Shown piece after piece: positions 8,861 to 62,301 of a stretch of 64,000 nt of DNA (position 1 is its first letter; each line of letters begins with the position of its first letter). Source of the DNA: Pseudorhodobacter ferrugineus DSM 5888. Its GTDB lineage: Bacteria > Pseudomonadota > Alphaproteobacteria > Rhodobacterales > Rhodobacteraceae. Position numbers and translations under genes: made by a program. The stretch spans positions 124,001 to 188,000 of the forward strand of contig NZ_ATVN01000004.1 of assembly GCF_000420745.1 (NCBI RefSeq), given 5' to 3'. The notes beneath the pieces are model-generated. The model saw only the letters and a program-made list of their open reading frames with translations. It did not search any database and was not told the origin of the DNA.

Positions 8861-8932
8861 TGTTCGCGCGCGGACATTTTTGTAAAGTGTTGATGTAGAA
8901 TGGTTTTCGGTTTTTTGTTAACCGAATTTTAA
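8861..8932 (-). promoter_or_regulatory. Composite element copy 1: CtrA-type box plus CGCGCGCG palindrome
   Basis: Palindrome TGTTCGCGCGCGGACA at 8861-8876, a 41-nt AT-rich spacer, then TTAACCGAATTTTAA (TTAA-N7-TTAA, the CtrA consensus) at 8918-8932. The same two parts recur with the same 41-nt gap at 42863-42934 and 61349-61420. Read from box to palindrome (minus strand) there is a possible -10 (CTACAT) 18 nt after GTTAAC. It lies between the dxs stop and the HsdR-like gene. Function unknown. Confidence 0.7.
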
Positions 8933-9064: not shown

Positions 9065-10129
9065 ATGGAATTTGACGAGCGCGTAAAAGACCTTGCGAAA
9101 CGATCGAAGCACGCCTCAAAACATGCCCTGACAGAAGAAGCGACAAAGACCTCTGTTGTTTTACCGCTGATACAGACCCTCGGGTTTGATGTATTCAACC
9201 TTGAAGAAGTTGTCCCCGAGTTCATCGCAGATGTAGGGATGAAAAAGGGTGAAAAAGTAGATTTTGCCCTTAAAATCGGCGGGAAGGTGTCTGTATTGAT
9301 TGAGGTCAAGCCGATCTCAATGTCACTTGGAAACACGCAGTACAATCAGCTCTACCGATATTTTGCCGTGACAGACGCGCGTTTGGCGATTTTGACGAAT
9401 GGGCGGGAAATTTGGTTTTTTTCAGACGTTGATGAACCCAACAAAATGGACAAAAAACCGTTTTTTACGTTCGATTTGCAATCACATGATGAAGCGCAGG
9501 CGCTTGAATTTACACGCTTTCAAAAGGACGGCTTCCAAATAGAGTCCATCTTAGAAGCTGCGTCGAACTTGAAGTACACGACTGCGGCTGCGAACTTTTT
9601 GAAAAAGCAAATTGCAAAGCCCGACGAGGAGTTTGTTAGACTCGTAGGCAAGCAGATCTATGATGGAATGCTTACAAAAGCAGTCATTGAAATGCTCCGG
9701 CCCGCGATACAAGCCTCGTTGGATGAGGTTATCCGCGACCGTATTCAAGATAAGCTTAATGTTGCATTTCGACCTGACCCTGTTGCGTCAGAGAGTTCAC
9801 ACAACAAAACGCCCGATGGTGCCGAACCAGTTTCTGATATTGTGACGACAGATGAAGAAATCCAGGCCTTTATGATCGTGCGTGCGATATCGGCCAAGGT
9901 TATTGATTTGGAACGCGTTACCATGCGTGATGCGAAAAGTTATTGCTCGGTTTTCGTTGACGATAATAACCGCAAGCCGATTTGTCGCTTTTATTTCAAT
10001 GCCAAGAACAGCAAGAGTTTGGGCATTTTTGACGCGAGTAAGGTTGAGACGCGGCATGTAATTGGCAGTTTGAAAGAGATATATCAGTTTAGTGCTGCAA
10101 TTGAGGATGCCGTTAAGGCACATTTATAA
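9065..10129 (+). CDS. HsdR-N-like restriction endonuclease domain protein, solitary
   Basis: A 354-residue protein with an N-terminal domain resembling the nuclease domain of type I restriction subunits: VDFALKIGGKVSVLIEVKP near 65-83 supplies the PD-(D/E)XK residues Asp66, Glu80 and Lys82, preceded by VVLPLIQTLGFDVFN. No helicase part and no hsdM or hsdS neighbours exist, so it is not a classical type I system. The C-terminal third (about 235-354) is unassigned. Codon use is AT-richer than dxs, suggesting transfer. Start ATG with gagggtga upstream. A defence role is inference. Confidence 0.75.
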   Translation: MEFDERVKDLAKRSKHASKHALTEEATKTSVVLPLIQTLGFDVFNLEEVVPEFIADVGMKKGEKVDFALKIGGKVSVLIEVKPISMSLGNTQYNQLYRYFAVTDARLAILTNGREIWFFSDVDEPNKMDKKPFFTFDLQSHDEAQALEFTRFQKDGFQIESILEAASNLKYTTAAANFLKKQIAKPDEEFVRLVGKQIYDGMLTKAVIEMLRPAIQASLDEVIRDRIQDKLNVAFRPDPVASESSHNKTPDGAEPVSDIVTTDEEIQAFMIVRAISAKVIDLERVTMRDAKSYCSVFVDDNNRKPICRFYFNAKNSKSLGIFDASKVETRHVIGSLKEIYQFSAAIEDAVKAHL

Positions 10130-42862: not shown

Positions 42863-42934
42863 TTAACATCACGTAAACAAAAATTCCAAAACCCTTCTAA
42901 ATCAAACTCTTACAAAAACGTTCGCGCGCGAACA
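42863..42934 (+). promoter_or_regulatory. Composite element copy 2
   Basis: TTAACATCACGTAAA (one mismatch from TTAA-N7-TTAA) at 42863-42877, 41-nt spacer, then the palindrome CGTTCGCGCGCGAACA at 42919-42934, whose inner GTTCGCGCGCGAAC is perfect. TGCGTACAA occurs on both sides (42850-42858 and 42938-42946). The spacer shares CTTCTAAATCAA and TTACAAAAA with copy 1. The element ends 18 nt from the stop of the RluA-family gene. Confidence 0.7.
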
Positions 42935-42952: not shown

Positions 42953-43603
42953 TTAAAACGGGCAAGGGGCCGCAAAATTCATCGCGACCCCACTCTCGGG
43001 GTGCCGGATTTTCAAACTATCCGCATGCAGCATAAGACGCGGAAAATCGACCGCCGCCCCGCTGGCATATAAAGGGTCGCCCAAAATCACATGCCCAATC
43101 TCCAGCATATGAACCCGTAATTGATGGCTGCGGCCCGTGAGCGGGGTCAGCTTCATCCGCGTCTCGCCGCCGCCCCGCTTTAAAACCCGCCAATCGGTGA
43201 CAGACGGCTTTCCGGTTTCAAAATTCACATGCTGGCGCGGGCGGTTTGGCCAATCGACGATCAAAGGCAGGTCCACGCGCCCACTATCCTCCAACACCTC
43301 ACCCCACACCCGTGCCAGATAGATTTTCTTGGTCAGCCGCTGTTCAAACTGCTGCCCCAAAAACGCCTGTGCCGGTTTGGTGCGGCCAAAGATCATCACG
43401 CCGGATGTGTCCAGATCCAGCCGATGCACCAGCAAAATATCGGGATAAACCTGACGCAGGCGGTTGATCAGGCAATCGCTGCGGTCCTCGCCCCGCCCCG
43501 GCACCGACAGCAGGCCAGAGGGTTTATCCGCGACCACAATTTGATCGTCGGCATAAATCACCGACAGGGGGGTCGTGGGGGGGATATAGACGAAATCGCT
43601 CAT
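42953..43603 (-). CDS. RluA family pseudouridine synthase
   Basis: 216 residues. VIYADDQIVVADKPSGLLSVPG starts the domain and the catalytic Asp is in LLVHRLDLDTSGVMIFG near 60-76; the C-terminal GRSHQLRVHMLEIGHVILGDPLY is also typical. It has no S4 domain, as in RluA or the short RluF-like members, so rRNA or tRNA target is open. ATG 43603 follows gtgggg. The 3' end abuts composite element copy 2. Confidence 0.9.
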   Translation of the reverse strand: MSDFVYIPPTTPLSVIYADDQIVVADKPSGLLSVPGRGEDRSDCLINRLRQVYPDILLVHRLDLDTSGVMIFGRTKPAQAFLGQQFEQRLTKKIYLARVWGEVLEDSGRVDLPLIVDWPNRPRQHVNFETGKPSVTDWRVLKRGGGETRMKLTPLTGRSHQLRVHMLEIGHVILGDPLYASGAAVDFPRLMLHADSLKIRHPESGVAMNFAAPCPF

Positions 43604-43819
43604 CCCCACCCCATAGCCCAAGCCGGTGCGTCAGACAATCGTGTGCCCTGCCACGCGCAAGGCACCTGCCCGTGCGGCAATATGGGGAACCTGGGCTATC
43701 TCGCTTTCCTTATCCTCAGTTTTGGCCAGACAGTCAGTGTCTTGCTATCACAGATCAAAAGTTGTGGTTTGACTCAGCCATTGCGCCCGCCACGCGTAGC
43801 AAGAAAATAGGAGACGTAG

Positions 43820-60273: not shown

Positions 60274-61257
60274 ATGGAATTTCTACTTTTACTTCTTGTC
60301 CCTGTTGCCCTTGGCGCGCTCTTTTCTGGCGATGGTGATGATAGCACAGATACCCCTCCAAATCCCGAAACCGATGACAACGACGTCGTGCGCGGTGTCG
60401 CCGCAGATGATACGCTGGACGGCGGCGATGGCAGTGACCTTTTATTCGGCTATCGCGGCGATGATACCCTTAGCGGCGGCGCGGGTGACGACCTGTTGGA
60501 TGGCGGTCTGGGCGATGACCAGATTTTTGGCGGTGCGGGCGAAGATGTGCTTGTCGGCGCTGCCGGTGATGACAGCCTGCAAGGTGGCCGCGGCGATGAC
60601 GCTTTGGCGGGCGGCGCGGGCGATGACACGCTCGACGGCGGCGATGGTGACGACGTCTTGAATGGGTCCACCGGATCCGATGTTATGTATGGCGGTGCAG
60701 GCGATGACGTTATCGATGGTGTTTCGCCTACTGCAAGCCGCAGCTTGGAAGACGCTTTTGACGATGTCCGCGATGAATTCAGCGCTTCCATGCGCAGCAC
60801 GTTTGGCACTGATGTGACCGATGCTGATATTGGCCGTTTCCTGAATGACTTTGCGTCCGAAGAGGGCACCCACGGCGCAGACGCGTTGTTTGGCGGGGCA
60901 GGTAATGATCAGCTGATCGGAAATGACGGCGACACCCTGACAGGCGGCGCGGGCAACGACAGTTTCGGCGTCAATTGGGTGACGGGCAATGATCCGGTCG
61001 CAATCACCGATTACGACACCACCATCCAATCCGGCGTCACCACACCCGAAGCGCTGCGGATTTTTGTGGATGATCCCACCATCGTAAATCCGGTTCTGGG
61101 TCTGCGCGACGCCGCCGATGGCTCTGGGGTAGAGGTTCTGGTCGGGCTGAACGTGGTCGCAAACCTGCAAAACGTGGATGTCGCCGATATCAATCTCGGC
61201 TCCATCACGATGGGCGTTACAGGTACGACCGTCATAACACAGGCAATCCGGCTCTAA
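60274..61257 (+). CDS. RTX calcium-binding protein 4
   Basis: 327 residues. The N-terminus [23 protein letters not shown] is almost identical to that of RTX protein 3; acidic linker, RTX repeats about 47-150, a helical-looking insert (ASRSLEDAFDDVRDEFSASM, about 155-195), one more repeat block and a tail with VAITDYDTT. Start ATG 60274 follows aaagg. There is no TTAA-N7-TTAA box upstream, unlike the other three RTX genes. Confidence 0.85.
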   Translation: MEFLLLLLVPVALGALFSGDGDDSTDTPPNPETDDNDVVRGVAADDTLDGGDGSDLLFGYRGDDTLSGGAGDDLLDGGLGDDQIFGGAGEDVLVGAAGDDSLQGGRGDDALAGGAGDDTLDGGDGDDVLNGSTGSDVMYGGAGDDVIDGVSPTASRSLEDAFDDVRDEFSASMRSTFGTDVTDADIGRFLNDFASEEGTHGADALFGGAGNDQLIGNDGDTLTGGAGNDSFGVNWVTGNDPVAITDYDTTIQSGVTTPEALRIFVDDPTIVNPVLGLRDAADGSGVEVLVGLNVVANLQNVDVADINLGSITMGVTGTTVITQAIRL

Positions 61258-61348: not shown

Positions 61349-61420
61349 TTAATTTTAGGTTAACGAAAAAAGGGAAGTCGTTTTTTATCAACGACTTCCC
61401 TAAATGTCCGCGCGCGGTCA
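61349..61420 (+). promoter_or_regulatory. Composite element copy 3
   Basis: TTAATTTTAGGTTAA (TTAA-N7-TTAA) at 61349-61363, a 41-nt spacer, and the palindrome TGTCCGCGCGCGGTCA at 61405-61420. Within the spacer lies the dat terminator (61371-61401), yet the gap is the same length as in the other two copies. It ends 17 nt from the dat stop and faces the RTX genes. Confidence 0.7.
61371..61401 (-). terminator. Terminator of dat
   Basis: A perfect 12-bp stem AGGGAAGTCGTT (61371-61382) / AACGACTTCCCT (61390-61401), 7-nt loop, followed on the minus strand by TTTTTCG. It lies inside the spacer of composite element copy 3. Confidence 0.85.
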
Positions 61421-61437: not shown

Positions 61438-62301
61438 TCAAATCGCGGTCTTGCGGCTCTCTTCCAAATAGATTTCCCGCAGCCTTTTTGCCACCGGCCC
61501 CGGGGTTCCATTTCCAAGGCTGGCCCCGTCAATTTCCACCACAGGCATCACAAAAGCCGACGCCGAGGTGAAAAACGCCTCATCCGCCTGCTTTGCCTCT
61601 TCAATCGTAAAGGGCCGCTCTTCAACCACCATTTGCGCCTCTTTCGCGAACCTCAAAACCGCCGCCCGCGTGATTCCGTGCAAAATATCGTTGGAAAGCT
61701 GGCGGGTAATAATCCGCCCCCCTTTCACAATATAGGCGTTATTCGAGGTCCCTTCGGTGACGTGCCCATCCTCAACCATCCAGGCATCATCCGCGCCCGC
61801 TTTCTTGGCCATCATCTTGCCCATTGACGGGTACAAAAGCTGGACCGTCTTAATATCCCGCCGCCCCCAGCGAATGTCTTCAATCGAGATCACCTTGATC
61901 CCCGTTTTCGCAACCGGACTGTCCGCCATGCCCGGCTTTGATTGGGTAAACAAAACCAGCGTCGGCTTGATCGTGGCAGGGTCCGGAAAGGCGAAATCCC
62001 GGTCCCCCGGATTGCCGCGCGTGACCTGCAAATAAATCATCCCGTCCGTCAGATCATTCCGCGCCACCAATTCGCGGTGAATTTCCAGCAGCTCGTCATC
62101 CGAACAGGGCGCCTCAATATCCAGCTCTTTCAAACTGCGTGCCAGCCGCACCTGATGGCCCGCAAAATCCAGCAGCTTGCCACCCAAAACGCTGGTGACC
62201 TCATAGACCCCGTCGGCCATCAGAAAACCGCGATCAAAGATCGAAACCGTGGCCTCGGCTTCGGGTAAATACTGGCCATTTACATAAACGATGCGCGACA
62301 T
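61438..62301 (-). CDS. dat: D-amino acid aminotransferase (D-alanine transaminase type)
   Basis: 287 residues, fold-type IV PLP enzyme. SIFDRGFLMADGVYEV near the start, the PLP lysine in RRDIKTVQLLYPSM near 147-160 and VTEGTSNNAYIVKGGRI near 185-201 are those of Dat rather than IlvE. It interconverts D-amino acids and 2-oxo acids. It follows the enolase-superfamily gene after 3 nt, so the two form an operon in D-amino acid or cell-wall peptide metabolism. Confidence 0.88.
   Translation of the reverse strand: MSRIVYVNGQYLPEAEATVSIFDRGFLMADGVYEVTSVLGGKLLDFAGHQVRLARSLKELDIEAPCSDDELLEIHRELVARNDLTDGMIYLQVTRGNPGDRDFAFPDPATIKPTLVLFTQSKPGMADSPVAKTGIKVISIEDIRWGRRDIKTVQLLYPSMGKMMAKKAGADDAWMVEDGHVTEGTSNNAYIVKGGRIITRQLSNDILHGITRAAVLRFAKEAQMVVEERPFTIEEAKQADEAFFTSASAFVMPVVEIDGASLGNGTPGPVAKRLREIYLEESRKTAI

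Follow-up and report, generated by a model that had tools for sequence, protein, structure and literature searches.

The locus at 8861-8932 raises the question of why a short palindrome and a box resembling a CtrA site should stand at one exact distance from each other in several gaps between genes, and what such an arrangement could be for. The first-pass annotation of the 64,000-nt stretch of DNA analysed here (the window) had pointed out three copies with a constant gap of 41 nt between palindrome and box, and its six coordinates, together with the palindromes and boxes, were all confirmed, as was the gap itself in 3 of 3 copies. In element orientation, that is, palindrome first, copy 1 runs along the plus strand and the other two along the minus strand. 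Copy 1 starts 10 nt past the stop codon of dxs with a 16-bp palindrome, TGTTCGCGCGCGGACA, around a CGCGCGCG core (8861..8876, plus strand), and continues with a predicted IHF-consensus site placed by sequence and family offset (WATCAANNNNTTR on the minus strand with 1 mismatch, 8883..8895), a T/A tract leading from that site to the box (8911..8917; T51-T55 are conserved in the family alignment) and a CtrA-type box assigned by sequence match, TTAACC-N5-TTAA (8918..8932, plus strand). Copy 2 carries its palindrome, CGTTCGCGCGCGAACA (42919..42934, minus strand), behind a pseudouridine synthase gene (42953-43621, minus strand) whose stop is 18 nt away, a predicted IHF-consensus site, AATCAAACTCTTA, with no mismatch to the consensus of PMC8942017 (42900..42912, plus strand), and a box with one mismatch to TTAA-N7-TTAA (42863..42877, minus strand). 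In copy 3, the palindrome TGTCCGCGCGCGGTCA (61405..61420, minus strand) follows a class IV aminotransferase gene (61438-62301, minus strand) at 17 nt from its stop, the predicted IHF site TATCAACGACTTC has 1 mismatch (61386..61398, plus strand), the box is found at 61349..61363 (minus strand), and sequence and folding reveal a strong hairpin with a T-run in the spacer, an addition resembling an intrinsic terminator (61372..61400, minus strand). Copies 1 and 2 had also been said to share two stretches of spacer; TTCTA-N-ATCAA and TTACAAAAA are indeed common to both, and the leading C of the supposed CTTCTA is absent from copy 1. The CGCGCGCG core by itself is common in the window (15 sites versus 9.7 expected). 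As for the neighbourhood, the product of the gene downstream of copy 1 (9065-10129) has 354 aa and, instead of a full type I enzyme, comprises only the HsdR N-terminal domain, and the gene convergent to copy 3 (60274-61257) encodes an RTX calcium-binding repeat protein.

The observation is correct, and the family is larger than the annotation described. A profile, that is, a sequence-only model built from 24 ungapped copies (26 rows minus those at window 6890 and 63399, which are chance CGCGCGCG sites), retrieved 70 full-length copies from the 3.43-Mb window genome (G000), all of them ungapped and scoring at least 29.7 bits; the remaining rows, at 24.3 bits or below, match only a short stretch at the palindrome end and are mostly other-strand reads of those 70 palindromes. 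One of the copies lies 3.4 kb ahead of the window (G000:C4:120473-120561). In 70/70 copies the box is offset by 57 nt from the palindrome start, which is the 41-nt gap. Allowing up to 1 mismatch, the palindrome TGTNCGCGCGCGNACA occurs at 63 places in the 3.43 Mb versus 3 for the reversed pattern, and a pattern free of species-specific letters, consisting of the palindrome core and the box at its spacing, gives 63 matches, the reversed pattern giving 0. The genome-wide search for the fixed gap thus places the spacing above chance, and a chance origin or an artefact of shuffled spacing is ruled out by the reversed-pattern controls. Read from the stop codon, the order of parts is the 16-bp palindrome, the IHF consensus, a T/A tract at offsets 51-55 and TTWACC-N5-TTAA.

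Homologous copies were also found in relatives, against the possibility, raised in the same annotation, that there might be none. Matches occur in 5 of 9 Pseudorhodobacter genomes, namely the window genome, Pseudorhodobacter sp. E13 (G001), P. wandonensis (G006), P. antarcticus (G008) and G005, and are weak in one relative; they number 53 in P. antarcticus, 51 in P. wandonensis, 24 in E13 and 16 in G005. The relatives' copies analysed are a fetched subset (31 from P. antarcticus, 28 from P. wandonensis, 14 from E13 and 4 from G005), with G005 excluded from the covariation, folding, identity, half-site, register and motif counts. Across 84,980 species genomes, a scan yielded at least 78 stretches, all from Pseudorhodobacter among the matches listed, and a pattern built on CGCGCGCG with 1 mismatch allowed, which a variant core would escape, was found in none of the 294 genomes sampled from other genera in the family. 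Another genus (G020) gave two weak matches with no palindrome visible, and the exact pattern had no match in viral contigs. The gap after dxs holds the element in G000, G001, G006 and G008 and, by eye, a decayed-looking one in G005; none was seen there in G002, G004, G007 or five other genera, and G003 gave no dxs match. G007 had no copy in 2.0 Mb. In a dxs tree, the element-bearing species were neither grouped nor separated as a clade.

Between palindrome and box, the spacer is variable except for offsets ~22-34, whose letters give WATCARNNNNTTR in reverse complement. For IHF, PMC8942017 gives WATCAANNNNTTR as the consensus, and PMC1914354 quotes WATCAN5WTR as an alternative form. With up to 1 mismatch, WATCAANNNNTTR lies at offset 22 in 54/70 copies of the window genome, 22/28 of P. 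wandonensis, 28/31 of P. antarcticus and 11/14 of E13, and with its sixth base relaxed to R in 55/70, 24/28, 29/31 and 13/14, respectively, the conservation of core, IHF letters and box in the relatives being partly by construction because the fetching pattern mainly demanded those letters. At other offsets the relaxed form is found in a median of 0 copies. Among 10 copies chosen by palindrome alone, the mismatches to the relaxed form are 0, 2, 0, 0, 0, 0, 1, 0, 1 and 0 (at most 2 in 10/10), and columns 22 (Y) and 34 (W), each with two letters, match degenerate IHF positions; columns 32-33, however, vary although the IHF consensus is fixed there, which counts against the assignment. The relaxed consensus is missed by more than 2 letters in 8/70 copies of the window genome, and by eye there is none in two RAYT-B copies and in the P. 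wandonensis copy beside RAYT-B (discussed below). As for the box, the full CtrA site is TTAA-N7-TTAA in PMC6180460, and the copies of the window genome match it with 0 mismatches in 50/70 and with 1 in 20/70. IHF and CtrA are thus predicted as binders by consensus. By the geometry of IHF binding, the IHF dyad would fall about midway between palindrome and box. The earlier proposal of two cooperating protein sites at fixed spacing fits this picture, extended by a third predicted site, the IHF consensus, between the two.

The position of the copies relative to genes, which were called with a simple hexamer script rather than a standard gene finder, is strongly biased. In the window genome, a gene ends toward the palindrome side in 57/70 copies (median distance 17 nt), and 51/70 start within 50 nt of that end and in the same direction; 13/70 are without a preceding gene end. 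Across five genomes, both neighbours were called for 139 copies. Of these, 62 lie in convergent gaps, 57 in tandem gaps with the palindrome at the stop, 10 in tandem gaps in reversed orientation and 10 in divergent gaps, so that the palindrome faces a gene end in 119. Element-free gaps of at least 100 nt in the same loci (n = 270) comprise 103 divergent, 136 tandem and 31 convergent ones. Convergent gaps are thus enriched and divergent gaps depleted among the copies, and the 57:10 orientation in tandem gaps has a p of 4e-9. Because the copies follow gene ends, are enriched in convergent gaps and are rare in divergent ones, a promoter role is unlikely, and the annotation's other proposal, a promoter with an operator, goes unsupported. 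Spelled out, that explanation holds that CtrA activates a promoter with a palindromic operator, which fires either in the direction of the palindrome, and so antisense to the upstream gene, or in that of the next gene. It would suit the fit of the box to the full CtrA site (as given in PMC6180460) and the location of some copies 30-150 nt ahead of a downstream gene, yet it is hard to reconcile with the 62 copies between convergent genes, with the lack, by eye, of a conserved -10-like hexamer, and with the fit to IHF of the spacer letters that vary least, so that we consider it very improbable. A regulon theme was also rejected, as nothing unites the upstream genes (dxs, ubiG, priA, tig, ychF, gltX, recR, argG, mnmA and others); their annotation covered 20 of the 57 genes of the window genome, mostly at sites shared between species, and 3 of the 20 had no match.

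Another explanation for a place just past gene ends is that the copies form a family of intrinsic transcription terminators that act through RNA hairpins. It could account for the 51 copies that start close behind a gene and for the 58/70 copies of the window genome in which four or more of the 6 nt past the palindrome are T; strong spacer hairpins in three copies point the same way, and the palindrome folds better than column-shuffled arms in P. antarcticus (z = -3.6), in E13 (z = -6.5) and in the pooled set (z = -6.1). However, it folds worse than shuffled arms in the window genome (z = 2.2) and in P. wandonensis (z = 5.7), and the T-run is found in 12/28 copies of P. wandonensis, 2/31 of P. 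antarcticus and 0/14 of E13. Moreover, the spacers are without clear base-pair covariation and are no better folded than column-shuffled ones in 3 of 4 species (the exception is P. wandonensis, z = -3.4), and the IHF letters and the box are left unexplained. With folding mixed between species, no hairpin with a U-tract conserved across species was found, and we regard a terminator family as improbable. An RNA element of a more general kind was rejected as well, since the covariation scan, column-shuffled folding and Rfam together brought out none, although folding differs by species; of 4227 Rfam models, none exceeded its gathering score in the window and none reached E <= 1 in seven element loci.

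The comparison between species separates what has been inherited at each site from what has changed. A flank matching that of a copy in the window genome was found for 59 of the 77 fetched copies of relatives (upstream flank 57, downstream flank 29). In the 56 shared pairs (without G005), low-information spacer letters agree at 0.43 versus 0.369 when permuted (0/2000 as high; by species, 15 in 2000 for P. wandonensis, 1 for E13 and 37 for P. antarcticus), and the outer arms of the palindrome agree at 0.371 versus 0.397 permuted, i.e., they are not shared. Within a genome, the mean arm identity is 0.80 in the window genome, 0.82 in P. wandonensis, 0.80 in P. antarcticus and 0.68 in E13. One outer arm per genome is near-uniform or dominant, and the arms differ across genomes: in the window genome the right arm is GACA in 47/70 copies and the left arm TGTT in 31, TGAC in 20 and TGTC in 16; in P. 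wandonensis the left arm is TGAC in 20/28 and the right arm GACA or GACG in 26/28; in P. antarcticus the right arm is ATGC in 29/31 and the left arm GCAT in 12 and AAAT in 10; in E13 the left arm is GAAT in 14/14 and the right arm is variable. The arm dialects of the window genome and P. wandonensis are thus similar, and those of E13 and P. antarcticus are strongly different from both. At the end of the aminotransferase gene (window copy 3), for example, the GGGAAGTCGTTG hairpin is retained in E13 beneath GAAT arms. From the shared flanks and spacer letters together with the unshared arms, it follows that copies were inherited while the arms changed species-wide. The simplest reading of these sequence patterns suggests that the arms co-evolved with a diverging DNA-binding protein; a homogenising process, e.g., gene conversion, is a possible alternative cause of the change.

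The arms have further traits. Symmetric outer arms occur in 3/70 copies of the window genome versus 17.7 expected from the halves (0/5000 permutations as low), and TGTCCGCGCGCGGACA is absent from all 70 palindromes although each half is common. This avoidance is absent in P. antarcticus (12 versus 11.3); in P. wandonensis 0 symmetric arms were found against a small expectation of 1.7, and in E13 the invariant left arm leaves little contrast. Arm-like half-sites also occur outside the palindrome, in a scan that skipped copies too near a locus end: GNAC at +75 in 31/70 and at +77 in 11/70 copies of the window genome, and in P. antarcticus (30 of 31 copies used, one being near a locus end) ATCGC at +79 in 11 and at +89 in 7 and GCGAT at -14 in 8; they are scarce or weak in P. 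wandonensis and E13. Arm k-mers show no strong excess outside the elements, and an abundant motif of the HIP1 or DUS kind was rejected on that ground; CGATGCG is mildly enriched outside the elements in P. antarcticus (19 versus 7).

It would be tempting to see the family as an old mobile repeat, MITE- or REP-like, which spread in an ancestor and was inherited thereafter; palindrome, flank half-sites and IHF site would be features of a transposon end, and the arms would follow the transposase. The copies are interspersed, clade-limited and intergenic, and none was seen in the orthologous dxs gap of G002, G004 and G007; IHF sites are present in known mobile repeats such as Correia (PMC2229807); and three genomes have a copy in the local dialect ahead of a broken RAYT gene. 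This gene, RAYT-B, stands beside gatC on contig C26 of the window genome and, by eye, also in P. antarcticus and P. wandonensis, with a second copy on C34 of the window genome (L218, L219, L226, L227); some of the broken copies are interrupted by REP-like sequence, and the element is found just upstream of each. This element may be another copy at a long-occupied site or a remnant of the family's origin. However, low-information spacer letters agree at 0.36-0.39 within a genome, about the 0.369 seen between unrelated copies of different genomes, and this within-genome unlikeness, together with the flanks that most fetched copies share across species, disfavours a recent spread. An intact gene, RAYT-A (G000:C11:29985-30506; L217/L221), is adjoined by GTAG REPs and by no element; the GTAG-tagged REPs that go with it are separate from the element, and none of the four genomes viewed has an element upstream of this gene. 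RAYT-A has matches in 4 of 9 genomes (G000, G001, G006 and G008), the genomes with well-kept elements (G003 is 87% and G005 84% complete). Its identity is 71% between the window genome and P. antarcticus and 57% between the window genome and P. wandonensis, opposite to the arm dialects. Half-sites are present in two species, and, by eye, no pair of filled and empty sites was clean enough to read a target duplication. On balance, we hold a mobile repeat to be rather unlikely. GTAG-tagged REP-like repeats, e.g., GTAGGGTGGGTGNAACCCACC, lie at window 10177, 10226, 34293, 34303 and 44665, and no intergenic 7-mer in the loci of the window genome is more over-represented than GTAGGGT (21 versus 2.7 expected), which derives from the REPs; the element does not match a canonical REP.

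The element is real and functional-looking, and its combination of parts is new. Architecture, register, location, sites shared between species and species-specific arms are its sequence-level basis, from which we infer the identity of the binding proteins, DNA bending and a boundary role. With moderate confidence, we suggest that it is a DNA-level nucleoprotein site of ~75-100 bp, usually right after a gene end, with a directional boundary role. The palindrome would be bound by a putative, probably dimeric DNA-binding protein, the region near the middle of the element by IHF, and the direct-repeat box by a protein of the CtrA/OmpR-family type. IHF might fold the DNA into a U-turn that brings palindrome and box side by side, and such a fold, we propose, would explain why the 57-nt register is fixed while the spacer letters vary. 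The copies would be kept in place by descent, their arms shifting together as the specificity of the protein shifts. At the ends of transcription units, the complex could form a directional boundary, that is, a protein roadblock or insulator combined with a nucleoid node, and cell-cycle tuning through CtrA is possible. Judging from position and orientation, a boundary is the most likely role. A site for chromosome organisation of the parS, Noc or SlmA kind, which serves segregation or division control, would agree with an average of one copy per 49 kb of the window genome, with 0/70 copies called inside genes and with none on the two contigs that carry RepC plasmid replication genes (C25 and C33). 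Yet the palindrome is not parS and the parS-like sequences of G007 differ, no clear ori/ter bias was seen on a G007 contig, where only 21 of 57 orthologues of element-flanking genes could be mapped, and the orientation at gene ends would be unexpected, which makes it unlikely in our view.

A more far-reaching form of the proposed boundary site, which we put forward only tentatively, is that ~50-70 IHF-folded, CtrA-gated complexes mark the ends of transcription units and that a fast-evolving protein with species-shifted specificity drags along the inherited arms and some of the flank half-sites. If true, this would be a genome-wide switch of a recognition code with several stages visible within one genus, and an element class without a described counterpart in the literature searched; among the titles and opening lines of abstracts covered, with subscription papers mostly outside the scope, nothing describes such an element. 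The family may also be regarded as a natural experiment, in which many sites are common to several species and mainly the recognition letters of one protein have been swapped. The contrast between dialects should make the palindrome protein findable, and a role at gene ends could be tested by deletion or by a dialect swap.

Among known systems, the element most closely resembles IHF-binding repeats of gene ends. The RIB/RIP elements (BIME-1) of enterobacteria number about 70 and consist of REP/PU palindromes that bear a GTAG or CGTC tag. In 1993, they were reportedly described by Boccard and Prentki as IHF-binding repeats at the 3' ends of transcription units (cited in PMC3733652). To our knowledge, no function has been agreed on for IHF-binding repeats at gene ends. 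The likeness comprises an interspersed repeat, an IHF site, palindromic DNA, a post-gene location and a similar copy number, and two of the RIB/RIP features, an IHF consensus at a fixed place (54/70) and the location at 3' gene ends (57/70), are present in the window genome. In contrast to RIB, which was compared by description rather than by sequence, the element also contains a CtrA-type box, always in one register, and has species-specific arms. Neither a GTAG nor a CGTC tag occurs in the element consensus, the GTAG REPs of the genome being separate. Because the REP-unit feature is lacking, we regard the element by analogy as akin to the IHF-binding interspersed gene-end repeats; it probably works like RIB/RIP rather than being a member. 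It would be a family of IHF repeats from a different bacterial class, more strictly designed and with a predicted cell-cycle partner.

Other comparisons are more distant. The CtrA-IHF clusters of alphaproteobacterial origins likewise have adjacent CtrA and IHF sites, but they include DnaA boxes and belong to one origin region (PMC1914354), whereas the element occurs as ~70 dispersed copies with a palindrome. Correia/NEMIS repeats of Neisseria are small and contain an internal IHF site, the IHF form being almost only intergenic, and they end in inverted repeats of 24 bp and duplicate their target (PMC2229807); no such ends were seen in the element, most of whose fetched copies have flanks in common across species. 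In Caulobacter and Brucella, CIR repeats are ~110-bp intergenic alphaproteobacterial repeats with a link to cell-cycle regulation, and they have a conserved GANTC and two RNA arms (PMC2229807). The element differs in that GANTC is found in 2/70 copies of the window genome, 0/28 of P. wandonensis and 4/31 of P. antarcticus, and in 14/14 of E13 via the arms only. These E13 palindrome arms (e.g., L123 and L159) form GANTC, the CcrM target, in every copy, versus 0/129 palindromes in the other three species. A gene for a CcrM-like adenine methyltransferase, identified by an NCBIfam match under the curated cut-off, precedes one copy of the window genome (L166:1836-2912).
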